Source of the DNA: Chitinophagaceae bacterium
GTDB lineage: Bacteria; Bacteroidota; Bacteroidia; Chitinophagales; Chitinophagaceae
NCBI GenBank assembly: GCA_947448685.1
Contig: CANFOP010000003.1
Span: 1 to 54,554 of the forward strand
Direction of reading: 5' to 3'
Length of the DNA stretch: 54,554 nt
Below the pieces are notes generated by a model, which saw only the letters and a list, made by a program, of their open reading frames with translations, searched no databases and was not told the DNA's origin. Both the position numbers and the translations under genes were made by a program. Every line of letters begins with the position of its first letter. Positions within the stretch are counted from its first letter, which is position 1. Below are positions 11,789-45,580 of this stretch, one piece after another.

Positions 11789-14700
11789 TTATAAATTAAG
11801 ATTTAAACCAAAACTGATTGTTTTTGCCCTAGGATATACTGAATAATCAAATCCGGGCGTCAATGCTGAATTATAAACAGACACTTCAGGGTCAACCCCT
11901 GTGTATTTTGTCCATGTTATTAAATTCTGCGCAGAAACATACACTCTCAATGATTTAATTTTTGCCTTTTTTAAAGTTGTAGTTGGAATTTCATATCCCA
12001 GTTGAAGGGTCTTTAATCTTAAATAAGATCCGTCTTCAATAACGCGAGAAGAGTAGGTTCTTGGTCCATCCCCTCCTGCAACATACATAATATTGTTTTG
12101 ATTGGTTGGAGTCCACCTGTCTAAAACTGAAGTAAATTGATTTTGTAACATTCTGCCAGAGTTTCCTTCAAAAATTAAACGGTTAGCATTTAATAAATCA
12201 TTTCCATAAGAAAACTGGAAAAATGCATTTAAATCAAAATGCTTGTATTTAATATTATTGGAAAATCCTCCTATGAAATCTGGATTGGCATCCCCTATAA
12301 TAGTTTTGTCGTCATCATTGATTACCCTATCTCCATTTAAATCTTTGTATTTAATATAACCCGGTTGAATTTTAGGATCATACACAGAGGTATTGGATGT
12401 TACTGTTGGTTTTAAAGTATAAACGCCGGCTCCGCTTAATTCAAAATCACTGTACTGATAATTACCATCCCAGATAGCACCATAATACAATCCAAGCGGT
12501 TGGCCTACTTTCGCAATATAAGGCGCCATTCCTCTCCAGTTATTATCCCAATTAATCAATGATAATAACGATTCTTGTCCATCATTTAATGCAAGAACTT
12601 TGTTTCTGTTAAATGAAATATTGAATGATGTTGTCCAGTCAAAACTTTCCTTGTCAATATTCTTAGATGTTATTGAAAATTCCAATCCCTTGTTTTGAAC
12701 TTTTCCTACATTTTTATATGCTTTTGTAAATCCGGAAGATGGTGGCAATTGAGCATAAATCAATAAGTTGGAGGTGATTTTATTATAGGCATCAACCGTT
12801 ACATTAATTTTATCATCCCACAAATTTAAATCTAAACCGAGATTAGACTGTGAAGTAGTTTCCCATTTCAAATTTGGATTTCCCAATGCACTTGGAACAA
12901 CCGCATTGGCAGCGGTTCCATTGAATGGATAAGACAATGTTATATCTGTTGCCATGGTGCTTAAATAGGCAAAATCAGAAACCCTGTTATTTCCTGTTAC
13001 GCCATAACTGAATCTAATCTTTGCATCTTTAACTGCTTTGATGGATTTCATGAATTTTTCTTTGTTCATGCGCCATGCAATACTTCCAGAAGGAAAATAA
13101 CTCCATTTGTTGGCAGTAGAAAATTTAGAAGACCCATCCGCGCGCATTGAAAATGTAACTAAATATTTTGAACTGTAATTATAGTTTGCTCTGGAAAGAA
13201 ATGAAACAAGATTATTGCTGGATTTGTACGCTACAATTTTAGAAGGAACTCCTTCATCCAAACCTGACAAGCCTAATGATTCATTAGGGAGTTGAGTAGC
13301 AGCCGTTCCATAATTATATTGTCTGGCACCTTGAACAGTTGCTCCACCTACAATATCAATTGTATTTTTCTTATTGAACTTTTTATTGAAAGAAAGAGTA
13401 TTCTCATTCACATAATTGTTTTTGGTATTAAAGACAATTGAGCCATTCACGCCATTAACTCTTCCTGATGATGTTAATGGGCTTCCGCCTCTTGTTTTTG
13501 TTCCATTAAATTCTTCATTTCTATCCACATCGTTTCTGTATCCGAATGTAGATTTAAAAACAAGGTTCTTTTTAATTTGATAATCTAAATTGAAGTTTCC
13601 CGCCAGTGCGTTGGTGTATCTGTTTCTCACTTCAAACTGAACGGTTTCGTAAGGATTAAACCTTGCATCATTACCGCTTAATAAATCTGCTTCCAATTGA
13701 GGGTCCTGACCATTTAACAAATCAACGGTTGAGTCACCTGAAACAGGTCTGTAACCCCAAACGCTGAACATCAGATTACTCGTAGCAGAACTTCCTGATA
13801 ATGATGAAGGTATGGTTCCATAGGATTTCAAAGAACTATAATTTACATTAAGCCCAACTTTTACTTTATCGTTTACTTCCTGATCTAATTTAATTCTTCC
13901 CTGGTATCTGTCATATCCTGAAAACTTAACTATACCTTCCTGATTTAAGGCAGATCCGGAAATAGAATACGTTGATTTGCCATAGCCTCCTCTCAAAGAA
14001 AGTTCATGGCTGCTCATTTGAGAGTTTCTGAATAAAATATCTTGCCAGTTAATCCCATTTACCCCTTGGTAACTTTCTACTGTTCTTCCATTGGTTAAGT
14101 AGGTTGATTTTGTATTTACCGGATCATTTTCATACTGAAATCTTACAAACTCATAAGGAGAGAGAACATCCATCTTCTTGATAATCTGATTCACACCATA
14201 ATACGTATTATAACTGATTTCTGTTTTACCGACTTTTCCTTTTTTTGTAGTAATCATGATAACGCCATTGGCTCCTCTTGCTCCATAAATTGCTGTAGCA
14301 GAAGCATCTTTCAAAATTTCAATCGATTCAATTTCCGAAACGTTAATTGCATTATTATTGGCGCCTTCTACCGGAAATCCATCTATCACATACAATGGAG
14401 AGTTGTCCTGTGTGATAGAGTTACTGCCTCTGATAACAATCGAAACCGGTGAACCAGGCTGGCCATCACTTGAAACTACCTGAACTCCTGCAGCTCTTCC
14501 CCCTAAAGCTTCTTCAAAACTTCTTACGGGAGCTTTAGCCAGATCTTTGATATTTAGTTTTTCTACCGATCCTGTCAGATCTTTTCTTTTTGAAGTTCCA
14601 TACCCTACAACTACTACAGCATCCATCGTGCTTTGTTTCTGTTTCATAAATACATTGGGAGCCGTATTACCCTTAACCACCAAATCCTGTGATTCATACC

Positions 14701-14932
14701 CAACATAAGTCAATTTAAGTGTTACTTTTTCTGCGTCAGAGGATGAAATGGTATATTCACCATCTGCATTTGAAGTGGAAGAGTTCTTTGTATTCTTCAC
14801 CTGAACAGTAACTCCGGCCAAAGGCTTTCCTTCTTCTCCATACACTTTACCTGATATTTTTTTTGTTTGCGCATACGAACTTAATGCCGCAAATAAGAAA
14901 ATTGGAATAGAAAGCAATAATCGTTTGTTCAT
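11789..14932 (-). CDS. susC: SusC/RagA-family TonB-linked outer-membrane transporter
   Basis: This 1047-residue TonB-dependent transporter has a signal peptide (residues 1-21) and a CarboxypepD_reg-like domain (about 24-100; KISGKVYGEEGKPLAGVTV). A TonB-box-like stretch VVVVGYGTSKRKDLTGSV is followed by the plug (about 115-230) containing SSDGQPGSPVSIVIRGSNS, PLYVIDGFPV and KDASATAIYGARGANGVIMITTKKG. A long beta-barrel ends in SFGLNLNL. It would import oligosaccharides across the outer membrane with SusD as lid. The gene begins only 10 nt after the beta-helix protein gene, so the secreted protein and the transporter are co-transcribed. Specificity cannot be inferred from the barrel. Confidence 0.97.
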   Translation of the reverse strand: MNKRLLLSIPIFLFAALSSYAQTKKISGKVYGEEGKPLAGVTVQVKNTKNSSTSNADGEYTISSSDAEKVTLKLTYVGYESQDLVVKGNTAPNVFMKQKQSTMDAVVVVGYGTSKRKDLTGSVEKLNIKDLAKAPVRSFEEALGGRAAGVQVVSSDGQPGSPVSIVIRGSNSITQDNSPLYVIDGFPVEGANNNAINVSEIESIEILKDASATAIYGARGANGVIMITTKKGKVGKTEISYNTYYGVNQIIKKMDVLSPYEFVRFQYENDPVNTKSTYLTNGRTVESYQGVNGINWQDILFRNSQMSSHELSLRGGYGKSTYSISGSALNQEGIVKFSGYDRYQGRIKLDQEVNDKVKVGLNVNYSSLKSYGTIPSSLSGSSATSNLMFSVWGYRPVSGDSTVDLLNGQDPQLEADLLSGNDARFNPYETVQFEVRNRYTNALAGNFNLDYQIKKNLVFKSTFGYRNDVDRNEEFNGTKTRGGSPLTSSGRVNGVNGSIVFNTKNNYVNENTLSFNKKFNKKNTIDIVGGATVQGARQYNYGTAATQLPNESLGLSGLDEGVPSKIVAYKSSNNLVSFLSRANYNYSSKYLVTFSMRADGSSKFSTANKWSYFPSGSIAWRMNKEKFMKSIKAVKDAKIRFSYGVTGNNRVSDFAYLSTMATDITLSYPFNGTAANAVVPSALGNPNLKWETTSQSNLGLDLNLWDDKINVTVDAYNKITSNLLIYAQLPPSSGFTKAYKNVGKVQNKGLEFSITSKNIDKESFDWTTSFNISFNRNKVLALNDGQESLLSLINWDNNWRGMAPYIAKVGQPLGLYYGAIWDGNYQYSDFELSGAGVYTLKPTVTSNTSVYDPKIQPGYIKYKDLNGDRVINDDDKTIIGDANPDFIGGFSNNIKYKHFDLNAFFQFSYGNDLLNANRLIFEGNSGRMLQNQFTSVLDRWTPTNQNNIMYVAGGDGPRTYSSRVIEDGSYLRLKTLQLGYEIPTTTLKKAKIKSLRVYVSAQNLITWTKYTGVDPEVSVYNSALTPGFDYSVYPRAKTISFGLNLNL

Positions 14933-14942
14933 ATGTATATTA

Positions 14943-17900
14943 TTATTTGTGCTTAATAAATGAAATAGTTTTAATGAAGGTGCCTGTTAACATATCATAT
15001 AGTCTAAGATAATAAACACCCGATGCCAGTGATTTAATTTGAACGGTTGTTATCTCTGAATTGATAACGATATTATCGGTGATTTTTTGACCATTGGAAC
15101 TACAGATTACTCCGTACATGGCCATCATCATGTTTCCCTGAAGTTTAATTTTAATGAAATCCTCTGCAGGATTTGGATATAAAATTATGGGTGAGTTATT
15201 TTTTAGAGGCGACGAAAGAATCGTCAAATGAAGTGTTACAATGGAATCACAACCTGCTGCATTGGTTGTAAGCCAAGTGGCAGAATTGGTGGATGTTGTA
15301 TAAACAGAGTCGTGCCATATTAAAAATGAATCAGCAGAGATTGCTTCAATGGAAGAACTTGGTTGATTTATTGTTAAATAAAGTGTCTCTACAGAATCGC
15401 AACCCGCAGCATTTGTCGTTGTCCATGTTGCAGTATTGGTAGACGCTGTATATGTGTTACCATGCCACGTAAAAGATGAACACGCCGATATAGTAGTCAT
15501 AGATGATGTGGGATCATTTATTGTTAAATGCAACGTTACAACTGAATCACAACCATTTGCATTGGTTGTTGTCCATGTTGCTGTATTCGTAGATATTGTA
15601 TATGTAGTACCATGCCATGTGTATGATGAACATGCCGATGCAGTAACCACAGATGATGTAGGTTGGTTACTGATAGTTAAATGCAATGTTACAACTGAAT
15701 CACAACCATTTGCATTGGTTGTTGTCCATGTTGCAGTATTCGTAGATACTGTATATGTAGTACCATGCCATGTGTATGATGAACATGCCGATACAGTAAC
15801 CACAGATGATGTAGGTTGGTTGCTGATAGTTAAATGCAATGTTACAACTGAATCACAACCATTTGCATTGGTTGTTGTCCATGTTGCTGTATTCGTAGAT
15901 ACTGTATATGTAGTACCATGCCATGTGTATGATGAACATGCTGATGCAGTAACCACAGATGATGCAGGTTGGTTACTGATAGTTAAATGCAATGTTATAA
16001 CTGAATCACAACCATTTGCATTGATTGTTGTCCATGTTGCAGTATTGGTAGATGCTGTATATGTAGTGCCATGCCATGTATAAGATGAACATGCCGATGC
16101 AGTAACCACAGATGATGTAGGTTGAAGAATTGTCAAATGAAGTGTTATGGTAGAATCAAAACCAGCGGCATTAGTTGTTACCCAAGTTGGGGTGTTGGTA
16201 GATGCTGTATATGTAGTGCCATGCCATGTATAAGATGAACATGCCGATACAGTAAATACTGAAGATGTTGCCTGAACAGTTTGATAGACGCCTCTGTTAG
16301 GTGCAGTAGATGGTAATGGCGTTCCATAAAAATCAAAGCCGCCATTGTTACTGATTATTTTACCATTGTTTAAAGCAGGAGATGTACTTTGTAATTTATA
16401 CCCATCCAAAAATAAAATTGTTGAAACTCCTGAGCCGGGATTTACAAATTTTGGATCGGCTGTAATCTTGAAGGGATCTGTTGGTTCATTAGAAGGATGA
16501 TTGCCATAAAAAACGTTATTGGAAAATGTTCTTGTTTGTACTCCCGCTCCGCTTCCCCAAGAATAGGAGGTGGAACTACTTAAGTTGTATATGATATTGT
16601 TATAAAAATTGTATTTGTGATTGTTGCCGTCATTTTCAACGATGATTGTGGGACTTAAGCTCGACTTTGTGTAAAAAACGTTATTGTATATTTCATTGCC
16701 TGCTGATGAATAGTTGAAGTTTATTAATCGGCCCTTATCATTTTGACTGATACAATATCTTAATGTACATCCGGTATCCTGTGCATCCGGAACTCCTGTT
16801 GTATTGTTATTTGAACTTCTTGCATTGCAACCCCAGTAAATACCTTCAGAGTTATCATGACTATAACTGTATTGAAAAATAATTCCAATACTTCCGAAAT
16901 CAGGATCATACATGCTTCCATCAATATTTCCGGGATCCACATTTTGAGTAGTAGCTCTATTGTAATATCCTTCGTTATATTGAAAAACAGTTCCTTTGGC
17001 TCTTGCAGTAAACATGGTGTTACCGGTAGTTCCTAACGCCGTTTCATAACAAACATTGTGTTCAATTAAACCAGTTTCATCAGTGCATCGAATAATCATA
17101 GCATTTTTACCGATATGATGAACGGTATTGTGGCTAACTTTAATGTTACTGTATCTTCTGTTATACCAATCTGTATACTCTGTTCCTCCTGGATAATATA
17201 CATTCCATTCGTTGTCAAAAGCAATTCCAATATTTTCACAGTACCCAATATTGCTACTGTCAATCAGTACGTCATTGAATCTGGATTTTGAATTGGAAGT
17301 TTCCGTATTGCCCAGCACCGTAAAAAATATACCTCCTGTTCTTTTGGGAATCGCGCCATTCACCGTAGTAGTGCCATTTCCCAATTGGCCTTTAATGTGA
17401 TGTATATTCAGGTTCTTTAAATAAATATGGTTGGCTGTGCCAAAATTATCCAATGCAACCATAACACCTCTTCTGTCTGCACCCAATGGATTAGGATTGG
17501 TTCCTGTGGTACTGTATAAGCCAACAAAAAAATCTGTATTAACAGGACCGTTGGGAGCATTGGTAATCTCAAGATTACTGATTTCTATGTACTGTTGGTT
17601 ATATAAATAAACGACTGCTTCTCCCACTATACCATTACCTGCCAATAAAGGATCTGCTCCTGTTCCATAACTTGTCACTTTAATAGGATTTCCCGGTGTT
17701 CCTGATCCTTTGAATTTTAATTTTTGACCTGACCAGGTACTGCCACATTTGAGAAATACTTCCGTACCTGCTACCAATGTCATGGTATTGAGTTTTGAAA
17801 CATTTTTCCATGGATTCAATAATGAACCGTCATTATTGTCGTTTCCGGCAATTGAATCAATATAGTACCTAATTACATTTGCGGAAGCGTTGGTTGTTCC

Positions 17901-22139: not shown

Positions 22140-23144
22140 ATGAACCTAAAACAGTTTGCCAAAGAGCTGAATCTTTCCATTTCTGCTGTTTCAAAAGCAC
22201 TGAGAGACAGCCATGAAATAAGTGAAAAAACAAAGCAGATGGTACTTGATAAGGCCAGGGAATTAAATTATCAGGTAAATCCATTTGCGAGTAGTTTAAG
22301 AAAACAGAAAAGTAAAACAATTGCTGTAGTCATTCCTGAAATTGACAATAACTTTTTTGCTTTGGCCATCAAAGGTGTAGAAATGATTGCTCAGGAAAAG
22401 GGATATCATGTATTGATTTATCTTACCCATGAGGATGTTCAAAAAGAGGTTTCTGTAACAAAGATTCTGCAAAATGGCAGAGTAGATGGAGTTATGATTT
22501 CTGTTTCCAGCCAAACAACTGACATCTCACATTTACAAGGTTTGAAAGAAAATGGAATTCCCTTGGTATTTTTTGACAGGGTAACAGAAAAAATTACAGC
22601 CCCAAAAATCACGACCGATGATTACAACAGTGGCATAAAAGCAACAGAACATCTGATAGAAAATGGTTGTGAAAAAATCGCTTTTCTGTCAGTATCAGAA
22701 AATCTTTCAATCAGTAACAAAAGACTTGCCGGTTATGTAGACACGCTGAAAAGAAACAAAATCAATTATGATGATAAATTAATTATTCGTTGCAGCCAAA
22801 ATATTGAAGAAAACAAAAAGATATTAAAAAAACTTCTGGAAAAGAAAATCAAACCAGATGGGATTTTCGCATCTGTGGAATCACTCGCACTTACCACTTA
22901 TGAAGTATGCAACGAATTGAATATTAAAATCCCGGACGACATTAAAATCATAGGATTCTCCAACCTTCGTACTGCCTCTTTACTGTCTCCTTCCCTGTCT
23001 ACCATCACTCAACCAGCATACGAAATAGGCAGAGAAGCCGCCTCTATTTTATTTACGCTGATTGAAAAAAGCGGATACAACGGAATACCTGAAAATACAG
23101 TCATAAAATCAACGCTTACCGAAAGGAAATCGACCCGGAAGTAA
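22140..23144 (+). CDS. LacI-family transcriptional regulator
   Basis: This 334-residue DNA-binding repressor or activator has an N-terminal LacI HTH (residues 1-50): NLKQFAKELNLSISAVSKALRDSHEISEKTKQMV, with the hinge helix in NPFASSLRKQKS. A periplasmic-binding-protein-like sensor domain follows (about 60-330; TIAVVIPEIDNNFFALAIKGVE, VFFDRVTEKITAPKITTDD, PDGIFASVESLA, LSTITQPAYEIGREAASILF). It is transcribed away from the hexuronate/PUL operon, with a LacI-type palindrome in between, so it probably controls that operon in response to a sugar or uronate intermediate. The effector cannot be read from sequence. It converges with the glycosyltransferase gene, leaving only 9 nt between the stop codons. 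Confidence 0.94.
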   Translation: MNLKQFAKELNLSISAVSKALRDSHEISEKTKQMVLDKARELNYQVNPFASSLRKQKSKTIAVVIPEIDNNFFALAIKGVEMIAQEKGYHVLIYLTHEDVQKEVSVTKILQNGRVDGVMISVSSQTTDISHLQGLKENGIPLVFFDRVTEKITAPKITTDDYNSGIKATEHLIENGCEKIAFLSVSENLSISNKRLAGYVDTLKRNKINYDDKLIIRCSQNIEENKKILKKLLEKKIKPDGIFASVESLALTTYEVCNELNIKIPDDIKIIGFSNLRTASLLSPSLSTITQPAYEIGREAASILFTLIEKSGYNGIPENTVIKSTLTERKSTRK

Positions 23145-24322: not shown

Positions 24323-26164
24323 TCAATTAAGATAAACTTTTTTATACCAAACCTCCAAACAAAAAATTGTCCACAGCATCTTTGCTCTTTTTTCTGCCGG
24401 CACTTTTATTTTGTTTTCCAATAAGCCTTGCATAAAAGCAGGGCGGATGATCCTTTTACTAAACGCATCCGAAGCCCCAACATAATCAAACACCAAATCT
24501 TTCAACTCATGGTGTACCCAATTTTTCAATGGAACTTCAAATCCTCTTTTAGGCTGATGAATGATTGCTGAAGGCAAATATTTTTCTGCAAGTTTACGTA
24601 AAATTAATTTAGTGGTGCCGCCATGAACCTTATACTCATCTTTGATTGTAGGAGCATATTCTAAAATTTCTTTTGATAAAAAAGGACTACGGGCTTCCAG
24701 TGAATTATTCATGGTGGCTATATCCATTTTAGTCAATACATCATTAAATAAAAAAATGTCAAAATCAAGATTCATTATTTTTTTTAATCCCGATACATCA
24801 TTTTCATTTATTCTGTTGAAATCTTCTACAACATCCCCCAAGTATTGTATATCATCAGCAAGAATGTTCTTTTCGTAATCTTCAAATATATCCAGTCCCG
24901 CACTCAGATAAGTTTGGATTCCTGATTTTTTTGCCAACGACAAAAGCCTGTACAATTTGTTGTAGGATGTTTTTTTGTCGTTCGACAACGGCAGCATTGA
25001 ATGAACAATTTGGGCTGCACATTTCAACGTTTTATTGTTTTGAAAGAAATCATGTTTTACAAATGGAATATATCTGCGATAGCCGCCAAACAATTCGTCT
25101 GCGCCATCTCCGGTAAGCACAACTGTTACATTTTTTTTTGCTTCTTTGCTTACATAAAAAGATGGAATTGCAGAACTGTCAAAAAAAGGTTCTCCATAAT
25201 TACTTATTATTCTTTCAATATCATTTCTGAGGGAATTATAAGAAATGTCAATCTCTGAATGATTAGTGTTATACTTTTCAGCAACCAACTTTGCTAAAGG
25301 AGCTTCATTGTATGAACCTTCGAATGAAACGGTCACCGTTTTCAATTTTTCTACATAATTGCTTGCAATCGCTGTTATTAAACCGCTGTCTATCCCTCCG
25401 CTCAAAAAAGCACCTACTTCAAGATCGCTTGATTCTATTCTTCTTTTAACTGCCTCATGAAGTAATTCATCTGTTGTAGAAAGCGCTGTATCAAAGGTAT
25501 CTTCACTTTTTTGTATGAAAAAGTTATGTATGTCCCACCATTTTTTTTGTTGAATGTGAAGCGTATCACAATCAATATACATACAACTTCCTGCACTCAA
25601 TTCGTTCACATTTATATAAGGAGTATTTTTTTTGTAAAAAGTGCCAAACCTTAAATAATGAAAAAAATGATTGGTATTGATTTCCAAAGGCAGCAAATGT
25701 TTCAGGCAATTCAATTCACTGGCAAAAACTATTTTATCGTTGTCCTTGTAATAATACAAAGGTTTTTTTCCTGCACGGTCTCTCGCTAAGAATATTTTTC
25801 TTTCAACAGAATCAAATATGGCAAAAGCAAACATGCCGTCGAGGTATTGAAGACAAGCCTCACCCATTTTTTCAAACAATAAGAGAAGAATTTCGGTATC
25901 TGAATTAGTAGAAGTGGAAAAGTTAAATTGTTTTCTGAGTGCCTGATGGTTGTATATTTCTCCATTGAAAATGATTGTATATCTTCCTTTTATTGTCATT
26001 GGTTGCTTTCCACCCGAAATGTCGAGAATGGATAGCCTCAAATGATACAAATCAATATTCAAATGCTGGAATCCGTTTTGTTCATCCGGTCCGCGATGCA
26101 ACATCGCCTTTTTTATTGCCTCATAAGACAGTTTATAATTGACCGAGCCTGCTATACCGCACAT
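24323..26164 (-). CDS. asnB: Asparagine synthase (glutamine-hydrolysing) family protein
   Basis: This 613-residue AsnB-type enzyme starts MCGIAGS with the glutaminase nucleophile Cys2. It shows class II glutaminase features (AMLHRGPDEQNGFQ, IFNGEIYNHQALR, TNSDTEILLLLFEKMGE, LDGMFAFAIFD) and a synthetase domain with the PP-loop GAFLSGGIDSGLITA and VVLTGDGADELFGGYRRY. The C-terminus has EARSPFLSKEILEYA and PKRGFEVPLKNWVHHEL. It could make asparagine, but AsnB paralogues in polysaccharide clusters are often proposed to amidate sugar acids or other carboxylates. The partner GT4 gene 56 nt downstream supports the latter option without proving it. A clear -7 element (TAACTTTG) stands just upstream. 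Confidence 0.9.
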   Translation of the reverse strand: MCGIAGSVNYKLSYEAIKKAMLHRGPDEQNGFQHLNIDLYHLRLSILDISGGKQPMTIKGRYTIIFNGEIYNHQALRKQFNFSTSTNSDTEILLLLFEKMGEACLQYLDGMFAFAIFDSVERKIFLARDRAGKKPLYYYKDNDKIVFASELNCLKHLLPLEINTNHFFHYLRFGTFYKKNTPYINVNELSAGSCMYIDCDTLHIQQKKWWDIHNFFIQKSEDTFDTALSTTDELLHEAVKRRIESSDLEVGAFLSGGIDSGLITAIASNYVEKLKTVTVSFEGSYNEAPLAKLVAEKYNTNHSEIDISYNSLRNDIERIISNYGEPFFDSSAIPSFYVSKEAKKNVTVVLTGDGADELFGGYRRYIPFVKHDFFQNNKTLKCAAQIVHSMLPLSNDKKTSYNKLYRLLSLAKKSGIQTYLSAGLDIFEDYEKNILADDIQYLGDVVEDFNRINENDVSGLKKIMNLDFDIFLFNDVLTKMDIATMNNSLEARSPFLSKEILEYAPTIKDEYKVHGGTTKLILRKLAEKYLPSAIIHQPKRGFEVPLKNWVHHELKDLVFDYVGASDAFSKRIIRPAFMQGLLENKIKVPAEKRAKMLWTIFCLEVWYKKVYLN

Positions 26165-26219: not shown

Positions 26220-26240
26220 AAACCGGCCAAAGGGCCGGCA
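26220..26240 (-). terminator. Strong intrinsic terminator upstream of asnB-like gene
   Basis: On the minus strand GCCGGCC-CTTT-GGCCGG is followed by TTTTTTATTT. This GC-rich stem with a T-tract in an AT-rich region is a textbook intrinsic terminator. It would stop leftward transcripts coming from the LuxR-type regulator gene, whose stop is about 220 nt upstream. Confidence 0.88.
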
Positions 26241-26459: not shown

Positions 26460-27104
26460 TCAGATGTCCAAAGAAGAGTTATGAATAAACTTAAGTAATG
26501 ATGCGGTGTTTTTCAGGTTTAATTTCTTTAAAATATTAGAACGGTGCACTTCTACTGTTCTAGTAGATAAAAAAAGCTTCTCGCCGATTTCTTTTGATGA
26601 AAGACCATCTTTTATATGTTTTAATACTTCGACTTCTCTTTCAGAAAGTTTACTGATATCGGGTATTTCGTCATCTTCAAAAATCTGTTTTGCAAGATTT
26701 TCCTGAATTTCTTTGCAAATAAATACTTTGCCTTCATGGGCGGAGAGTATCGCCTCAAACATTTCCTTTCTGTTGCTGTTTTTGGTAACATACCCCAATG
26801 CACCGTTTTTGAGCATTCTTTTAGCAAAAGAAGGCTGATTGTGCATCGAAACGCCGATGACTTTTGTTCCCGGAGAAACTTTTTTCACTTGCTTGGTAGC
26901 ATCTATTCCTGAAATCGGCATGATATTGATATCCATAATGACAATGTCGGGACGCTTTGTACGGACAATTTCTATTGATTTGTCAGAAGTATCGTTACAT
27001 ATGGCTGTTACCATGAATCTTTCATCGGCATTGATGAGTTCGGACCACATTTCTGCCACCAGATTATGATCGTCGAAAATAATTATTGAGATTTTCTTTT
27101 CCAT
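26460..27104 (-). CDS. NarL/FixJ-type response regulator with LuxR HTH
   Basis: This 214-residue two-component regulator has a receiver domain (about 5-120) with acidic pair FDDH, phospho-acceptor Asp58 in DIVIMDINIMP, the Ser switch in IGVSMHNQ and Lys in GYVTKNSNR. The LuxR-type HTH (about 148-210) reads LSEREVEVLKHIKDGLSSKEIGEKLFLSTRTVEVHRSNILKKLNLKN. It starts 16 nt after the large histidine kinase gene and is the obvious partner of that HisKA_3-type kinase, because NarL-type regulators pair with that kinase class. Target genes are unknown. The transcript probably ends at the terminator near 26220. Confidence 0.95.
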   Translation of the reverse strand: MEKKISIIIFDDHNLVAEMWSELINADERFMVTAICNDTSDKSIEIVRTKRPDIVIMDINIMPISGIDATKQVKKVSPGTKVIGVSMHNQPSFAKRMLKNGALGYVTKNSNRKEMFEAILSAHEGKVFICKEIQENLAKQIFEDDEIPDISKLSEREVEVLKHIKDGLSSKEIGEKLFLSTRTVEVHRSNILKKLNLKNTASLLKFIHNSSLDI

Positions 27105-27120
27105 TGTTTTTTATTTTAGT

Positions 27121-29880
27121 TTACGGATCTATTCGATTCTTTTTGCTGACTTCTTTGATACTTTTTATTGGAAAATTTATTACAAAACTGGTTCCTTTTC
27201 CTTGTACAGATTTAACCTGAGATGTACCACCATAAAAATACACTCTATTATTGATACTTTTTAAGCCTAGCCCTTTTTTTAACTTATTCAGATTGAATCC
27301 AACTCCGTTATCATTGAATTTTATCGAAAGGTATGACTGGTCTCTGTTAAATGAAAGATTGATTCTATTGCATTTAGAATATTTAACCGCATTATTTACC
27401 ATCTCCTGAACTATTCTGTAAATGGTTCGCTGTGCTTCAAATGTAAGCCCATTAAAGTATTTAGAATTGGCTTCTAATTTGAATTGTATATTTTTAACAT
27501 CAGAAAATTGATTGAACAGTTCAATGATTGCCTCTTTTAATCCAAGATCTATAAGTGCTGCAGGCACCAAAGTCCTTGAAATTCTTCTCACTTCATTGAT
27601 GGCTTTTTCTACATTTTTATGCGCTTTCAAAAAAAGCTCAGGGCCAAATTTTTCAGAATTGGCGGCCATTTGCAAGAAAAGACTTGTATAGGTTAAAATA
27701 TGTCCTACTCCATCATGTAATTCGTTCCCTAGGATTTCCTTTTGTTCTTCTTCCGCATTCAATGTTGCTTTCATCACCTCATTCTGACGAATTGTTTTCT
27801 CTTCTTCTATCAACTTTTCCATTTTGCGGATTTCTGTAACATCCCAATGAATACCGACAGAACCTTTTACATTTCCATTAATGTCTATAATTGGGGAACC
27901 GCTGATTACGACGTCCAACAAAGAGCCGTTCTTTTTCTTTATTTTTATTTCATAAATAGAGTCTTTTTTCTGATACCTTGTTGTTGCAACATCTTTCATC
28001 ATTTCCACTGCATTCGACCCCACCAAAAATGTCTTGATTGCGTTTTTTCCTTTCAACTGACTTTTGGTATATCCCGACAACTCTTCGAATGATTTGTTTG
28101 CCCAAACAATGTTGTCGTTCAAATCTACTTCCATTACACCTAAATGCATATTTTCAAACAAGCCTCTATATTTTTGCTCACTTTCAATCAATACTTGTTC
28201 TGCTTCTTTTATTGCATTGATATCCCTGTTGTGCATCAAATACTTCCTATCATCGGTATTTTTTTCTTGAATGATAGAAATGACAGATTCCACCCAAATC
28301 TTTTCTCCATTCTTTTTAAGCATTCTGTATTCAAACTTGCTTTTATCTGTTTTTTTATTTTTGAGCCATAGCATTTTCTCAAGTTGCTTGACACATTCTT
28401 TACAGATGAATTTCTTGAGATTTTTTTTAAGCAAATCCTTTTCAGCATACCCTAAAATTCTTTGTGTAGTAGGCGACACATATTCTATCACACCGCTTTG
28501 ATTGGTCAAAATAATGATATCGGGAGAATTCCGAGTCATCAATTCAAGCTTTTCCTTTTCCAGCGTAAGTGTTTTTTGATATTCTTTTTCTTTGGTAAGG
28601 TCGAAATAGGCTCCTATGTAGCCTGCAAATTTTCCATCGGAATAAAATCTCGGAACTGCTTTTTCAAGAATATTATGATACTTGCCATTAGCATTACGAA
28701 GTCTGTATTCGCTTTGCACGGTTTTTTTTCTGTCTATATTATTTTTCCATTCTGTAATGGCTATCTTTCTGTCTGCCGGATGAACGAATGAAATATAATC
28801 CCGGAAATCAGTCATACCCTCCAATGAAATGCCTAAAAATTTCTTTAATGCATTATTGCTGTATGTTACTATATTCTTTTCATTGGACACCCAAACCATC
28901 ACGGGAACAGATTCCATCAGGTTTCTAAATCTTTCTTCTCCTTCCCTGATTTGCATCGAATACAATTGCTTGGTGGTTATATTCTTGATTCTTCCACTTA
29001 CAGCAATATCTTTTAAGTTCTCATCATAATACTTGCTGATTGATTCAGACAACCAAAAAAACTCTCCCGTTGCTTTATTTTCAACCTGATATGTAATTTC
29101 TTTTTGTTCTCCGATATCCAAATCTTCAATATGAGCAATGTGTTTTCTGGCAGTTTCACTTTTTATAAGTTTACTTCTTTCTTTGAAAATATTAATCCCT
29201 TCCTTGTAATCAAATCCGAAAAAATTAGGCCATTTTGATGTTACCAGATTTTTTTCTTTGTGAGTGTCATAAATGATATAATGAACATCCTCTGTTTTTT
29301 CCAAAAAACTTCTTAACCGCTGATAGTTTTCCTGTGCAATTAATTTTAAAGAATGGGCTTCGGTTACATCTGCTCCATAAAAGTTAATGTAATTTTTTCC
29401 TTGAACTTTTCTATAATAAAAAAGAAATTCAAGATTATTGGCATTCACTTCAATTGATCCGGAATCATTAATGTGTTGAGTGATGTAGAAAAAAAAGTCA
29501 ATGACCGAATATACTTTCCCTGAATATTTCAGTGTTTTTATTTTAGCCGCTACCGGATTAACAAAAATGATAGACCCCTCAATAGATACACGAAATATTG
29601 GATTGGGGTTTTCCAGAGGAAATTGTGCAATATCTGAAAGCTCTTTTGTTCTTTCATTTACCATTCCCTCCAAATCTTCGGTTAGTTTTTTTAATCGGTT
29701 GTTTACATTTTGGTATTCTTTCTCACTGATAGAAAAAGCGTGTTCACTCAATTCTTTATCTCTCTCATAATTATTGTAGGACTGACTTACAGCAGACAAT
29801 AGCTTTTTTATCCCTTCATCCATTTGAAGAGATTGATCAAGATATTTTTTAATTTGCCTTTCTAATTGTTGATGATACAT
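27121..29880 (-). CDS. Multi-PAS histidine kinase, NarX/HisKA_3 class
   Basis: This 919-residue cytoplasmic kinase has no clear transmembrane helices. A coiled-coil-rich N-terminus (1-80) is followed by about five PAS/PAC modules: roughly 80-190, 195-305 (FFGFDYKEGINIF), 310-440 (LMESVPVMVWVSNEKNIVTYSNNAL), 440-560 (SPDIIILTNQSGVIEYVSPTTQRILGYA) and 565-690 (LGVMEVDLNDNIVWANKSFEELSGYT). A linker leads to the phospho-acceptor helix with GNELHDGVGHILTYTSLFLQ and an ATPase domain (EMVNNAVKYSKCN, FNDNGVGFNLNKLKKGLGL). It follows the FIST gene by 5 nt and precedes the LuxR regulator by 16 nt. The FIST protein probably modulates it. PAS ligands (haem, flavin) cannot be judged by eye. Confidence 0.93.
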   Translation of the reverse strand: MYHQQLERQIKKYLDQSLQMDEGIKKLLSAVSQSYNNYERDKELSEHAFSISEKEYQNVNNRLKKLTEDLEGMVNERTKELSDIAQFPLENPNPIFRVSIEGSIIFVNPVAAKIKTLKYSGKVYSVIDFFFYITQHINDSGSIEVNANNLEFLFYYRKVQGKNYINFYGADVTEAHSLKLIAQENYQRLRSFLEKTEDVHYIIYDTHKEKNLVTSKWPNFFGFDYKEGINIFKERSKLIKSETARKHIAHIEDLDIGEQKEITYQVENKATGEFFWLSESISKYYDENLKDIAVSGRIKNITTKQLYSMQIREGEERFRNLMESVPVMVWVSNEKNIVTYSNNALKKFLGISLEGMTDFRDYISFVHPADRKIAITEWKNNIDRKKTVQSEYRLRNANGKYHNILEKAVPRFYSDGKFAGYIGAYFDLTKEKEYQKTLTLEKEKLELMTRNSPDIIILTNQSGVIEYVSPTTQRILGYAEKDLLKKNLKKFICKECVKQLEKMLWLKNKKTDKSKFEYRMLKKNGEKIWVESVISIIQEKNTDDRKYLMHNRDINAIKEAEQVLIESEQKYRGLFENMHLGVMEVDLNDNIVWANKSFEELSGYTKSQLKGKNAIKTFLVGSNAVEMMKDVATTRYQKKDSIYEIKIKKKNGSLLDVVISGSPIIDINGNVKGSVGIHWDVTEIRKMEKLIEEEKTIRQNEVMKATLNAEEEQKEILGNELHDGVGHILTYTSLFLQMAANSEKFGPELFLKAHKNVEKAINEVRRISRTLVPAALIDLGLKEAIIELFNQFSDVKNIQFKLEANSKYFNGLTFEAQRTIYRIVQEMVNNAVKYSKCNRINLSFNRDQSYLSIKFNDNGVGFNLNKLKKGLGLKSINNRVYFYGGTSQVKSVQGKGTSFVINFPIKSIKEVSKKNRIDP

Positions 29881-29885
29881 TTTTA

Positions 29886-31025
29886 CTAAAGTTCGGCAAA
29901 AGCTGTTATGGTGATGGTTTGATTATGCAGATGACTCTTTGTTAGTTGTCCGTTGGGCGCAATTTCTCCGTAAGAAAAAAAGCCTGCTATTACAGCATTA
30001 GAAGGTAACCTGTCAGTAGCCGCTTCTACTTCTTCCTCTATCCTGTCTGATAAAACTATTTTTCTGCCCACGCAACTGGTAACAATCACCAATTCAGGTT
30101 TTATTCCGTTCAACTGATTGAGCAGCGAAGTTTCTGCATTTGAGGCCGCATTTATCAATCTGTCGAAATTTGATTTCATAAATCTGATGACCGATCCCTC
30201 CGGAACATCTCCTGCAAATTTCATTTCTTTTTTCTTTTCATCTATCGATAGGATTGTTCGAATTAAAAAATTTTCCGAATCTTTCGATTTTATTGATATG
30301 GGAAATAAAAGTGCTGAAGATGGCAACTGCTCAGCATATTTTCCCAAATATAACTTATATAAATCCAATGCATTTGAATGGTCGATTTCACTCAATATGT
30401 TTCCATTGGATTTTGTTATGACTTTCTCTGGTCCAAATACATCCCAGCCTGCCTCCACTCCAACGCCTACTTTGATATGATTGCCATAAAGTCCCATTAG
30501 AACAACGTTGCCTTCTCTCATATCTTCATTCAAGCCAACCAGTGTTTTTTGAAACCGACCAGCATCTCCTGCTAATCCACCGGATACTATCACTTCTTTA
30601 TTGATAGACTGCTGAATGCCATTTACCAAAGCTTCTCCGTTTATCAAATTTCCATCAGAGATGACAAAAACAAATGTCAGATTTTCTGTTGGTAAATTTT
30701 TTGCCGTAAAAACACCTAATTCATAACTGTTTTTAAAATCATTAATATTACCCTTGGATAAAAAAGCAGGGGTTCTTTGAAATTCAATAGCAATACTTAC
30801 TGCGGCATCTTCTTCTACAATCCTGCTATAAATTTCTCCCGCTGTTGAACAAGTAATGATATCCGCAGTTTTAAAATTATTTTTTAGTTGTTGATATACT
30901 TTACCTTCTTCCAAAATTAAACGATCAGCAAAAACCAGGATGATTTGAAAAGCGGATTTTGCATCTTCAGATAAATCAAGACCTGTCCATACACCCTCTT
31001 TATATTTTATGATGCTATTTTTCAT
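29886..31025 (-). CDS. FIST domain sensor protein (NosP-like candidate)
   Basis: This 379-residue protein has a FIST N domain (about 30-220: ADIITCSTAGEIYS, TENLTFVFVISDGNLINGEALVNGI, VSGGLAGDAGRFQKTLVGLN, GNVVLMGLYGNHIKVGVGVEAGWDVFGPEKVI) and a FIST C domain (about 225-360: EIDHSNALDLYKLYLG, FLIRTILSIDE, VSGDVPEGSVIRFMKS-like residues, PELVIVTSCVGRKIVL, VIAGFFSYGEIAP). FIST proteins are ligand sensors associated with signalling genes. Some, called NosP, are haem proteins that sense nitric oxide and regulate a co-transcribed histidine kinase. Here the kinase follows by 5 nt, which fits that arrangement. Whether this one binds haem or an amino acid-like ligand is not visible. Confidence 0.9.
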   Translation of the reverse strand: MKNSIIKYKEGVWTGLDLSEDAKSAFQIILVFADRLILEEGKVYQQLKNNFKTADIITCSTAGEIYSRIVEEDAAVSIAIEFQRTPAFLSKGNINDFKNSYELGVFTAKNLPTENLTFVFVISDGNLINGEALVNGIQQSINKEVIVSGGLAGDAGRFQKTLVGLNEDMREGNVVLMGLYGNHIKVGVGVEAGWDVFGPEKVITKSNGNILSEIDHSNALDLYKLYLGKYAEQLPSSALLFPISIKSKDSENFLIRTILSIDEKKKEMKFAGDVPEGSVIRFMKSNFDRLINAASNAETSLLNQLNGIKPELVIVTSCVGRKIVLSDRIEEEVEAATDRLPSNAVIAGFFSYGEIAPNGQLTKSHLHNQTITITAFAEL

Positions 31026-37614: not shown

Positions 37615-38013
37615 ATGAACCAGTCAAAACTCAAGCAATATCGCTATGATATTGAAATGTGGAAAAGAGCATTATTAAATGCTCAACAAGAAAATGCTAT
37701 TTTAAAAACCCGATTGGCAGAATTCTCTACCACGCTCCAAGGTAAAAAATACATTGATCTGTTAGAATACCAACAAAACAGTCTTATCAGCATAGATAAT
37801 ATATTTTCCATCTTTAGAAACGATATCTATCATTACAACCTTTCGATTGAAAAAGAAATTTCGATTGCTGAAGATCAACCAGAACTAAAACTTTCTCAAC
37901 ATCAAAAAATGAGCAACGAAATAGAGGTAATTGAGTACACATTCAACAAATCGAAATTTCAATTCATTAACTTTATCAATGAAATACTGACTAAAAAAAA
38001 TGAGGCTAATTAA
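37615..38013 (+). CDS. Small coiled-coil protein, unknown function
   Basis: This 132-residue protein is not recognised. The first half (YRYDIEMWKRALLNAQQENAILKTRLAEF) has heptad-like spacing and should be a coiled coil. A second helical part runs from LLEYQQNSLISIDNIFSIFRNDIYHYN, with FNKSKFQFINFINEIL at the end. It has no signal peptide or transmembrane segment, so it is cytoplasmic. It has its own candidate promoter. Its stop codon overlaps the stop of the convergent REC-CRP regulator gene by 8 nt, a tight tail-to-tail arrangement. The codon use looks like its neighbours and the reading frame is fully open from an ATG, so it is probably a real gene. A role in signalling with its neighbours is speculative. 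Confidence 0.65.
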   Translation: MNQSKLKQYRYDIEMWKRALLNAQQENAILKTRLAEFSTTLQGKKYIDLLEYQQNSLISIDNIFSIFRNDIYHYNLSIEKEISIAEDQPELKLSQHQKMSNEIEVIEYTFNKSKFQFINFINEILTKKNEAN

Positions 38014-39064
38014 TCATTCCCTCGAGCTTTTTGTCATTAATGATGGATATATATCCGTCTTTTATATCTATTAATTTTTCGCTTTTGAAATCACTCAACG
38101 TTCGAATCAAAGATTCTGTTGCGGTACCGGCTATTGTTGCCAAATTTTCTCTGCTGATATCTATTCTGAAATTATCGTTCTCCTGAGTGTGATATTTATT
38201 TTTTAAAACTACTAGGGCGTCTGCTACTTTTTTTCTAAGCGAATTATAAGCGAGACTCAGTAAATGGTGTTCTTTATCTGAGATGTTTTTTGCCAGTAAT
38301 GATATGAATTTTTGCGCTACTTCGCGACTGTTTTTGAGCAAATCTTCAAACTCTTTTTTAGGTATAAGAGCCAATTCACATTCATCAATCGCTTCAGCAG
38401 TTTCTCTGTATAGTCCGCCCTGTAATAAAGCTATGTGTCCTAAAAAATCACCGGCCGAGTAAAGGTCTGTTACCAATTCTTTTCCATCATCGTTCGATTT
38501 AAATGTTTTTACTTTTCCTTTTAATACATAGTATAGCTGAATTGGATGATTACCTTCCGTATAAATGACTTGTTTCTTTTTATACTTGTTGATACTCCTG
38601 TGTTCTGTCAATGATTTAATTGGGTCCCCAAAAGACATTTCATTGATCATCTGACTAATACCATCTGCATCAGGCGTAAAATCTTTTTTTAGTATTTCAA
38701 TTTTTTTAAGTCTTCTGTCTATCGCGTTTAACAACTCTGTACTGTCAAAAGGTTTGGAAATATAATCATCCGCCCCAAGGTCCATTCCTTTTCTAAAGTC
38801 ACTTCTGTCTGTCTTGGCAGTCAAAAAAATGAATGGCGTGTTTTTAATCAATTCGTTTTTTTGAATGGCATGCAATACTCCGTATCCATCCAGCAAAGGC
38901 ATCATAATATCGCAAATAATCAAATCGGGCTTTACTTCAATTGCCTTTTCTACACCATCTTTTCCATTGGATGCGGTATAAACATTATACATCGCAAGTT
39001 CTAAAATTTCAGCCGTGTTTTCTCTGATTTCGTCATTGTCTTCAATCAATAAAAGTGTTTTCAT
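38006..39064 (-). CDS. Response regulator fused to a CRP/FNR-type DNA-binding protein
   Basis: This 352-residue hybrid regulator has a receiver domain (1-125) with IEDNDEI, phospho-acceptor Asp52 in LIICDIMMPLLDGYG, FLTAKTDR and DDYISKPFD. A cyclic-nucleotide-binding-like domain follows (about 150-265; QVIYTEGNHPIQLYYVLKGKVKTFK, YSAGDFLGHIALLQGGLYRETAEAIDECELALIPKKEF). The C-terminal Crp-type HTH (about 285-345) reads ISRENLATIAGTATESLIRTLSDFKSEKLIDI. The key cAMP-contacting Arg of CRP is not obvious, so phosphorylation may be the main signal. The PAS histidine kinase gene upstream on the same strand, 184 nt away, is the likely partner. Such REC-CRP fusions are seen in Bacteroidota, often near oxygen or NO responses; that link is inference. 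Confidence 0.92.
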   Translation of the reverse strand: MKTLLLIEDNDEIRENTAEILELAMYNVYTASNGKDGVEKAIEVKPDLIICDIMMPLLDGYGVLHAIQKNELIKNTPFIFLTAKTDRSDFRKGMDLGADDYISKPFDSTELLNAIDRRLKKIEILKKDFTPDADGISQMINEMSFGDPIKSLTEHRSINKYKKKQVIYTEGNHPIQLYYVLKGKVKTFKSNDDGKELVTDLYSAGDFLGHIALLQGGLYRETAEAIDECELALIPKKEFEDLLKNSREVAQKFISLLAKNISDKEHHLLSLAYNSLRKKVADALVVLKNKYHTQENDNFRIDISRENLATIAGTATESLIRTLSDFKSEKLIDIKDGYISIINDKKLEGMIN

Positions 39065-39248
39065 GTATGTATTTGTTTTAGTTTCTGGTTTGATGCTTTT
39101 ACTTTTTAATCACACTATACCCCTGTACCTCAGTTTAACAGAACTGATGTTTTGTTGTAATGATGGTGAGTTTCTTTTAAGGATTAGAAGGTTTATCGTA
39201 GTTGGTCTTCTTTAACTTGTAAAGAAGAAAAAAACAGATGAAGGATAA

Positions 39249-40919
39249 TCAACAGTTTTCATAGTGTAAAGAAGCTGCATTTAAAGATTCTTTGTGATTG
39301 GGTAATTTGATTTTAAATTCTGTTCCGATATTCAGTTGACTTTCAAATTCCAATGTGCCATTCAAACGTTCAACATATTTTGAAACGATATGCATTCCCA
39401 AACCGGTTCCCTGAATGTTTACCGCATTGGCGCCTCTGTAAAATCTTTCCATCAGATGCTTCTTGTCATCTTCAGAAATTCCAATGCCATTGTCTTTTAC
39501 GGATATTTTAATACAATCATTTTCAATTGCAGAGTCAATTACAATAATTGAATTTTCCGGAGAAAATTTTATAGCATTTGAAATCAGATTTATTAAAATG
39601 TTGCTTAGTAAAGAACTGTCTGAATAAACAACATTATCTCCATTGTGAGAATACTTGATTTTTTGACCATCTTTAATATTTGAATTCAAATCTTGAATAA
39701 GAGACTGGGATAATTTACTGATGTCAAACTCAGAAAACTTAATCGGAATCTTCCCTTCCTCAATTTTTCCAACATTTAAAAAATCATTTAAAATATCAGA
39801 CAGCAAACTAACAGAGGACACAATCCTGTTGATATGTTTGTCTCTTTTTGCCTGTTCTTCTGTACGTGTGTATTTGCTGATAAGGCAAGCAGATGAAAGT
39901 ATTGTACTTAAGGGGGTTCTGAACTCATGTGATGCAATAGAAACAAAACGAGTCTTAAGTTCTCCCAACTCTCTTTCTTTATTCAGGGATTCCTGAAGAT
40001 TTTTTTCTATCAATTTTCTGTCAGTAATATCAATGGCAAATGCCAGATAACCTGTTATTTCTTTTCCTTTATCTAAAATAGGTGTTATGGTAACAGATGC
40101 TATCACAGAAGAACCGTCCTTTTTTATTATGCTGCATTCTATATCATGAAAAAGATTCCTCTCCGATTTGATTTTGATTAATTCAAAATCATTATCAATA
40201 TTTAACCCGAATTCCCGGAAAAACTGATTTCGGTATTGTTGAATATCGGACTTGTCGATAAATATAAAAGGGGTTTCTTTATCAACAATCTCTTCTTTTG
40301 TGTAACCGGTAATATGAGTTGCTTCTGGATTGAAAAACTTTATAATACCTTCCTTATTTGTTACCATGAGCATAACAGCCGCATTGTCAAGAATAGCATT
40401 TTGGTATAACAAAGACAATTCAAGTTTTTCATTCAACTCTTCCAGTGTTTTATTGGCTTTTATCAGTTCTTTGTTTTTTCTATCATTATCTATTTCCAGC
40501 GCACTGTATTTTTTTTGAATATTAAGATGCTCTTTTGCTTTTAATGAAACATCTTTAATATACATGATTATTTGCTTTTGCTCATCTGATTCATAATTTA
40601 TCACACAGATATCAGCAGGAAATTCAATCCCATCTTTCTTTTTTCCAACAGCTTCAAATTCTTCGTCTATAAAATCATATTGGAAAACATTGCATGTAAT
40701 ATCATTTTCCGGAAACTTTGTCGAATCAACAATTGAAGGGATAAGGATAGATATATTTCGATGCAGAAAATCTTTTTCATCATAACCGAAAAGACTTTGG
40801 GTAAAGGGGCTGACAGAAAGTATTTTACCTTGCGCATTTATTAAAACAACAGCCTTTTTTGTATTTTTAAAAAAAACGCCGAAATCTATTTTTTCAATCG
40901 ATGTATTTACAGTGTTCAT
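39249..40919 (-). CDS. PAS-domain sensor histidine kinase (HisKA class)
   Basis: This 556-residue soluble kinase has a first PAS (about 10-130; VVLINAQGKILSVSPFTQSLFGYDEKDFL) and a coiled-coil linker (about 135-175). A second PAS with PAC spans about 175-305 (AAVMLMVTNKEGIIKFFNPEATHITGYTKEEIV, VIASVTITPILDKGKEITGYLAFAIDITDRK). The dimerisation and phospho-acceptor motif is VSIASHEFRTPLSTILSSACL. The HATPase domain has NILINLISNAIKFSPE, VKDNGIGISEDDKKHLMERFYRG and GTGLGMHIVSKYVERLNG. No transmembrane helices are seen. The REC-CRP gene follows 184 nt downstream, so it is the probable target. Ligands for the PAS domains are unknown. Confidence 0.95.
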   Translation of the reverse strand: MNTVNTSIEKIDFGVFFKNTKKAVVLINAQGKILSVSPFTQSLFGYDEKDFLHRNISILIPSIVDSTKFPENDITCNVFQYDFIDEEFEAVGKKKDGIEFPADICVINYESDEQKQIIMYIKDVSLKAKEHLNIQKKYSALEIDNDRKNKELIKANKTLEELNEKLELSLLYQNAILDNAAVMLMVTNKEGIIKFFNPEATHITGYTKEEIVDKETPFIFIDKSDIQQYRNQFFREFGLNIDNDFELIKIKSERNLFHDIECSIIKKDGSSVIASVTITPILDKGKEITGYLAFAIDITDRKLIEKNLQESLNKERELGELKTRFVSIASHEFRTPLSTILSSACLISKYTRTEEQAKRDKHINRIVSSVSLLSDILNDFLNVGKIEEGKIPIKFSEFDISKLSQSLIQDLNSNIKDGQKIKYSHNGDNVVYSDSSLLSNILINLISNAIKFSPENSIIVIDSAIENDCIKISVKDNGIGISEDDKKHLMERFYRGANAVNIQGTGLGMHIVSKYVERLNGTLEFESQLNIGTEFKIKLPNHKESLNAASLHYENC

Positions 40920-44931: not shown

Positions 44932-45495
44932 CTATTTAACGCTTCCCCAATTTTCTCCGCTTTTGATTCTGTATAAGGTCATTTCACTAACCTTGTATTT
45001 TTCAGCCATTTGTTTGTAGGTCAATTTTCTTTTAGGATTATTGATCATTCCTTTGATTGTTTTTACCTGACTTAACGTAAGTTTCAATCCAACACCCCTG
45101 CTTGCCTGTTGTTTTTTATATGCAATTTTAAGCGGACTTTTTTGTTGATGTGCTGCAACATCTTCAGCCGTTGCCCATTTTAAATTTGTAGCATTATTAT
45201 CAGATTTTTTATGATTCTTATGAATTACAAATTTTTCCTTAGGTGATTTTTTATTGCAAAATAATTTGGCTACCTCTCTGTGAATGTAAATAGTACCTCC
45301 CCCTTTTTCTACATGTAGGTTCAATGTCCTGTAACCGGAGGTAAGGGAACCATTTAAAAGGACGCCGTCCTCCATTACTGATACAATATAACTGGCTGAA
45401 CGTCCATGATTCGAAATCGCATATTTCTTCCTTAAGCTTTTGGAGCCGGGAAATTGCAATTGTTTCCAAATTTCTCCGGGAATTTTCTTAATCAT
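44932..45495 (-). CDS. Free-standing NUMOD4-HNH endonuclease-like protein with C-terminal HTH
   Basis: The track ORF begins inside ligA at 45669, but the start consistent with the domain layout is the ATG at 45495 (MIKKIPGEIWKQLQFPG), 85 nt after ligA ends. The 187-residue protein has a NUMOD4-like N-terminus (GEIWKQLQF ... YAISNHGRSASY) and an HNH-like core HREVAKLFCNKKSPKEKFVIHKNHKKSDNNATNLKWATAEDVAAH. This matches the usual H-NG-DN-NL-W-T pattern with Lys/His substitutions in the first part. A C-terminal HTH follows (about 140-183; LTLSQVKTIKGMI ... LTYKQMAEKYKVSEMTLYRIKSG). This layout is typical of homing-type endonucleases. It could be a domesticated remnant. The catalytic competence is uncertain. 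Confidence 0.82.
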   Translation of the reverse strand: MIKKIPGEIWKQLQFPGSKSLRKKYAISNHGRSASYIVSVMEDGVLLNGSLTSGYRTLNLHVEKGGGTIYIHREVAKLFCNKKSPKEKFVIHKNHKKSDNNATNLKWATAEDVAAHQQKSPLKIAYKKQQASRGVGLKLTLSQVKTIKGMINNPKRKLTYKQMAEKYKVSEMTLYRIKSGENWGSVK

Positions 45496-45497
45496 TG

Positions 45498-45559
45498 TAC
45501 TAGGTTTTAAATTGTTAGTTTTGGATTTAGAGATCCGCTTCGTCAAAAGAGACCTAGTA
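45498..45559 (-). promoter_or_regulatory. Inverted repeat in the HNH gene leader
   Basis: In the mRNA sense TACTAGGT (45559-45552) pairs perfectly with ACCTAGTA (45505-45498), leaving a 46-nt loop, and the second arm ends two nt before the ATG. Folding would hide the translation start. Alternatively the two arms form a binding site for the HNH/HTH protein. Confidence 0.5.
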
Positions 45560-45580
45560 TAAATATAAGAAAATAAATTA

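Follow-up and report, generated by a model that had tools for sequence, protein, structure and literature searches.

The closest described systems to the locus analyzed here couple a FIST sensor protein to a signaling enzyme. In Pseudomonas aeruginosa, a FIST_N/FIST_C gene of the NosP clade lies directly upstream of the gene for NahK, a soluble multidomain kinase with a clade-specific N-terminal helical segment, and NosP both binds the kinase encoded with it and modulates it (PMC12570481). The NosR-NosP-NosK set of Burkholderia pseudomallei and the NosP-NahK-NarR set of Legionella are trios of sensor protein, kinase, and regulator, in which the FIST protein controls a kinase without a transmembrane sensor and the published regulators have c-di-GMP-type outputs (i.e., HD-GYP and GGDEF-EAL). 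In Vibrio cholerae CdpA and other FIST-GGDEF/EAL proteins, the FIST input is fused to the enzyme (PMC8846402). Related kinase and regulator classes are found in NarX-NarL (HisKA_3 kinase and REC-GerE regulator), as well as in adjacent gene pairs of Chitinophagaceae that encode a multi-PAS HisKA_3 kinase and a NarL-type regulator. Our literature search found no paper joining the FIST domain, a histidine kinase, and Bacteroidetes.

We identified a FIST-kinase-regulator operon in a 54,554-nt stretch of a Chitinophagaceae genome (contig CANFOP010000003.1; referred to as the window), the features of which are listed in Table 1. It shares with NosP-NahK a FIST gene immediately followed by the gene for a soluble kinase of several domains that bears a clade-specific N-terminal segment (here called the adapter), and with the B. 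pseudomallei and Legionella sets the sensor-kinase-regulator trio. Unlike in the latter two, the regulator is a DNA-binding protein of the NarL type and the kinase has a PAS array of its own; in contrast to CdpA-type proteins, the FIST protein is encoded separately and the kinase carries an adapter. The multi-PAS HisKA_3 pairs of Chitinophagaceae resemble its kinase (30 to 37% identity over HisKA_3 and the catalytic domain) and regulator (50 to 56%) but have neither a FIST gene nor an adapter.

Table 1. Features of the FIST-kinase-regulator operon (positions in the window)
Feature	Positions	Strand	Description
FIST_N + FIST_C protein	29886-31025	minus	First gene, 379 aa; candidate co-sensor in the cytosol; Pfam
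PAS-array histidine kinase, HisKA_3/NarX-type	27121-29880	minus	919 aa; no transmembrane helix
N-terminal adapter segment (kinase residues 1-70)	29671-29880	minus	Alignment, genome survey, helix model
PAS array (kinase residues 84-690)	27811-29631	minus	Three or more significant PAS domains, with about five possible; CxxC motif (493-496)
HisKA_3 dimerization/phospho-acceptor domain (kinase residues 717-775)	27556-27732	minus	Predicted phospho-acceptor His722 (ELHDG)
HATPase_c catalytic domain (kinase residues 817-905)	27166-27432	minus	Pfam
NarL/FixJ-type response regulator	26460-27104	minus	214 aa; receiver (Asp58) and GerE HTH
Intrinsic-terminator-like hairpin with T tract	26222-26239	minus	Consensus match; 3' of the regulator gene, 5' of gene 24323-26164

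The initial annotation of three genes spaced 5 nt (FIST/kinase) and 16 nt (kinase/regulator) apart proved exact in coordinates, strand, and gaps, and Pfam agreed with its identification of a FIST protein, a NarX-type kinase, and a NarL-type regulator. The start of the FIST gene is separated by 221 nt from the next gene; this gap, together with the hairpin after the regulator gene, makes a single transcription unit plausible. The hairpin is a plausible 3' end of the operon as judged from sequence, although hairpins with a T tract were no more numerous in the scan than in shuffled sequence. The count of promoter-like sites around the operon likewise did not exceed the shuffled expectation. The same trio, in the same gene order and with nearly equal gene lengths, was found in two independent MAG loci (L141 from Chitinophagaceae and L144 from Ferruginibacter), and the trio of the window is thus neither a chance juxtaposition nor an assembly artifact.

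Other parts of the window include an apparent hexuronate/xylan-type utilization locus (384-23144), recognized from translations only, with uronate isomerase-like, mannonate dehydratase-like, GH3, SusD (10147-11769), and SusC (11789-14932) genes and a divergent LacI-type regulator gene (22140-23144). A 153-bp unit is repeated in tandem at 15409-16255 (5.6 copies, 89% matches) inside the gene for a 1302-aa predicted secreted protein, and this array also leaves an antisense frame open. A second two-component pair (38006-40919) consists of a PAS-HisKA kinase and a response regulator that combines a cNMP-binding domain with a Crp-type HTH. At 44932-45669, an HNH_3 endonuclease-like ORF overlaps the 3' end of a co-oriented DNA ligase gene (45581-47674).

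The FIST protein matched both Pfam models (FIST, 1.8e-39; FIST_C, 6e-34), and relatives with 42 to 53% identity were present in 26 of 120 same-family genomes, not counting that of the window. The initial annotation proposed this protein as a candidate of the NosP type, i.e., a heme-based nitric oxide (NO) sensor controlling the kinase. Such a reading is in keeping with the co-encoding of FIST_N and FIST_C, a kinase, and a regulator, an arrangement known from nosP operons (PMC12570481), and with the binding of heme and/or NO by studied FIST proteins (PMC8846402, PMC12570481). However, the protein scored 64.6 bits against the NosP equivalog model (NCBIfam NF041558), for which the curated cutoff is 450. 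Other FIST proteins of its clade (hereafter, the window clade) from Bacteroidota, Pseudomonadota, and Nitrospirota scored 55 to 83 bits, and NosP-clade proteins scored 229 to 602 bits among the matches listed for 274 genomes of the class of an Aquabacterium relative. Maximum-likelihood analysis put a branch with 100/98 support between the window clade and the NosP clade, the NosP rows being those caught by the NCBIfam model. Position 193 is Gly in the window protein and in 144/144 window-clade rows, as opposed to His in 17/20 NosP-clade rows, some of which are duplicate loci; this His is best regarded as a conservation marker.

The kinase also does not have a NahK-type N terminus. It scored 32.8 bits against NF041831 (cutoff, 1500) and 32.7 bits against NF041832 (cutoff, 400), so that an identity as NahK/ErcS' was rejected. 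In the same survey, the kinases encoded after NosP-clade FIST genes had their own conserved N terminus (LERENxKLxxINxxLIERVE...), to which the adapter showed no homology detectable by profile comparison (hhalign, 0.9 to 3.7%). None of the NosP-clade kinases seen in the survey combines a HisKA_3 core with a NarL-type neighbor, unlike that of the window. The N-terminal segment shared by the NosP-clade kinases of L308-L314 suggests a second, separate type of FIST docking.

The genomic context did not point to NO either. Among 120 Chitinophagaceae genomes, qNOR was detected in 2/27 with a window-clade FIST gene and in 9/93 without (Fisher p 1.0), and clade II nosZ was detected in 16/27 with and 44/93 without (Fisher p 0.38). 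The window's own genome (82% complete) yielded no qNOR or nosZ match. In this family, window-clade FIST genes thus showed no link to NO/N2O reductase genes. Cys318 and His367 are possible heme ligands; His367 is the only one of the four His residues of the protein to be conserved within its clade, and Cys318 is invariant there, but both are general FIST features that also occur in FIST groups of no known ligand. In favor of a heme precedent, some Burkholderiales adapter kinases combine a HEINN phosphatase motif with the absence of any named sensor domain, and B. pseudomallei NosK as described resembles them (PMC12570481); a precedent inside the window clade is therefore possible if B. pseudomallei NosP belongs there. 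Taken together, we regard a NosP-type module as unlikely.

Nothing in the sequence singles out NO as the signal of the FIST protein. Arg256, Arg321, and Cys318 show 95 to 100% conservation not only in the window and NosP clades but also in other FIST proteins, which would fit a small polar ligand no less well than heme. The AlphaFold2 model (pLDDT 93.5) had FBXO22 as its nearest solved fold, followed more weakly by Toblerone-fold cyclic amide hydrolases and, closely after these, by chorismatase, and a sequence search for a solved bacterial FIST structure gave no useful match. These observations are compatible with a sensor of heme itself or of a small metabolite (polar or anionic) other than NO, with a putative Toblerone-like pocket formed by the three conserved residues, and the FIST domain of V. 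cholerae CdpA is reported to respond to heme itself (PMC8846402). The fold matches are, however, weak in sequence (6 to 14% identity) and had TM scores of 0.37 to 0.53, and we give a ligand of this kind slightly less than an even chance.

Across 120 same-family genomes, nearly all related FIST genes have a kinase gene with a variable core immediately after them, and alignment of these kinases revealed that the part common to them is the first 70 residues (consensus, MxYHKLLERQIxKxLPE...FLxAVSxSYxxxERDKxLSEHAFxISExEYxEVNxxL). The adapter of the window is 32 to 54% identical to those of FIST-linked kinases of the family with differing cores; it is covered by no Pfam model and by none of the 25 NCBIfam matches listed. 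AlphaFold2 predicted a short helix followed by one long helix (residues 22-86; pLDDT 90). A profile built from 24 rows, with the window among them, matched the window adapter at 106.4 bits (E 1.3e-30) and gave 48 matches (E <= 0.001) in 396 Bacteroidota genomes. Of these, 41 lie in the gene that follows a FIST gene, starting 476 to 539 nt past its FIST_N match in the same orientation, and the other 7 have no adjoining FIST gene.

The linkage extends beyond Bacteroidota. Scanning GTDB contigs with the FIST alignment led to the identification of 80 loci, and an adapter gene was located directly downstream, at a distance of -7 to 95 nt, in all 78 with enough 3' flank. These loci belong to Bacteroidota, Balneolota, Ignavibacteriota, Pseudomonadota, Nitrospirota, Thermodesulfobacteriota, Planctomycetota, and Omnitrophota, and Azospirillum plasmids carry a divergent adapter version. 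Neighboring genes were taken from simple ORF calling, with GC-rich genomes rechecked by stop-to-stop frames. In Burkholderiales, 21/27 window-clade FIST genes have an adapter gene directly downstream; of the remaining 6, one has an adapter upstream and the others have none nearby. In three Burkholderiales loci (L302-L304), a window-clade FIST gene with no adapter gene nearby lies beside a thiol-peroxidase-like gene. Adapter kinases without an adjoining FIST gene (L137, L138, L139, and L140) may respond in trans to a FIST protein encoded elsewhere, or their own FIST gene may have been lost.

The breadth of this linkage across phyla makes a chance association untenable, though it does not in itself prove contact. 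The adapter might be a mere dimerization or coiled-coil element of the kinase, with the FIST gene linked by co-regulation rather than by contact; the segment is predicted to be helical, such helices often dimerize, and both orphan adapters and adapter-free FIST genes occur. Mantel correlations were 0.46 between FIST and adapter identity and 0.48 between FIST and core identity, with no correlation among pairs with different cores. These nearly equal values give the adapter no edge over the core and do not single it out as co-evolving with FIST. A generic helix, however, would be expected on many kinases, whereas the adapter is almost confined to FIST neighbors and its sequence is kept across different kinase cores and a GGDEF-EAL protein, and a purely dimerizing role therefore appears improbable. 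Since the adapter is in many phyla almost confined to the neighbors of such FIST genes, it is probably a socket through which FIST sensors are plugged into different signaling outputs.

The cores found behind the adapter include HisKA with or without receiver domains, HisKA_2/HWE, HisKA_3, and GGDEF-EAL. In one Burkholderiales locus (L305:3122-5131), an adapter-PAS-GGDEF-EAL gene directly follows the FIST gene, placing FIST input on a c-di-GMP enzyme with no kinase, and several loci of this order have a REC/HD-GYP-like gene (recognized by motif only) upstream of the FIST gene. The FIST proteins of the window, L141, and L144 form one clade (100/99) nested beside those of short adapter-HisKA-REC kinases. 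No close relative of the window kinase body was detected in any of 99 other sampled family genomes. Regulators 47 to 56% identical to that of the window are common in Chitinophagaceae, and in the inspected loci they usually adjoin multi-PAS HisKA_3 kinases without an adapter or a FIST gene. The simplest history suggested by these comparisons is that the window kinase is a chimera, in which the FIST adapter was joined to a multi-PAS HisKA_3 core along with its NarL-type regulator. Another adapter-HisKA_3 kinase (L156), which has no NarL-type neighbor, is placed elsewhere on the FIST tree, making a second core exchange likely.

Pfam identified PAS, HisKA_3, and HATPase_c domains in the window kinase. 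No 19-residue stretch has a mean Kyte-Doolittle value above 1.5, and the kinase is thus very probably soluble, as previously annotated. The earlier count of about five PAS domains stands in part: the span of residues 84-690 has room for five, a fair estimate from its length, but at most three stretches were significant with any Pfam or TIGR00229 PAS model, and the first two domains are putative. The suggestion that the array senses an internal redox cue has a single sequence hint in its favor, i.e., a CxxC motif formed by C493 and C496 in the fourth PAS region, which is kept in all three trio kinases (window, L141, and L144) and may be a redox or metal site.

The regulator consists of Response_reg and GerE domains (Pfam), and its combination with a HisKA_3 and HATPase_c kinase is that of NarX-NarL. 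Assignment to the NarX-NarL nitrate system was rejected: the regulator scored 108.9 bits against the NarL model (cutoff, 250), and the kinase, unlike NarX, has no transmembrane nitrate-sensing domain, its most hydrophobic segment having a mean of 1.5.

A FIST-regulated two-component system, as first proposed, is well supported by domains, gene order, and adapter linkage. We consider it likely that the operon is a three-component cytosolic system, in which a ligand-binding FIST protein signals via the adapter of a chimeric kinase, with the NarL-type regulator as the output. The route from FIST through the adapter to the PAS/HisKA_3 core is proposed by analogy with NosP and with YiaY, a sensor protein placed on the N terminus of its hybrid kinase by AlphaFold3 models (PMC12997753). 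The FIST protein, as an external sensor, would bind a small cytosolic ligand and would dock on the N-terminal adapter helix. Because the adapter appears to continue as a long helix toward the PAS array, the state of FIST and that of the array, which may contribute a second cue, would jointly set autophosphorylation at His722, with FIST presumably governing the kinase. The phosphate would then pass from His722 to Asp58 of the regulator, which in its phosphorylated form would change transcription.

More tentatively, the N-terminal helical segment, which has no name in the databases searched, may be a dedicated receptor for a non-NosP FIST clade. FIST and adapter would then form a portable input cartridge, present in at least eight phyla and joined to HisKA hybrids, HisKA_2 kinases, HisKA_3 kinases with NarL-type regulators, and GGDEF-EAL proteins. 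The window would represent one such exchange, with a DNA-binding rather than a c-di-GMP output and a signal other than NO; we place this broader reading a little below even likelihood. A FIST-kinase operon should not be equated with a NosP system by default, as the window clade is large, spans many phyla, and is without the NosP-clade signature. The literature that we examined offered no explanation of how FIST proteins reach their kinases, and the adapter provides a short, testable contact site. It may also serve as a genomic marker for FIST-controlled signaling proteins of any output.
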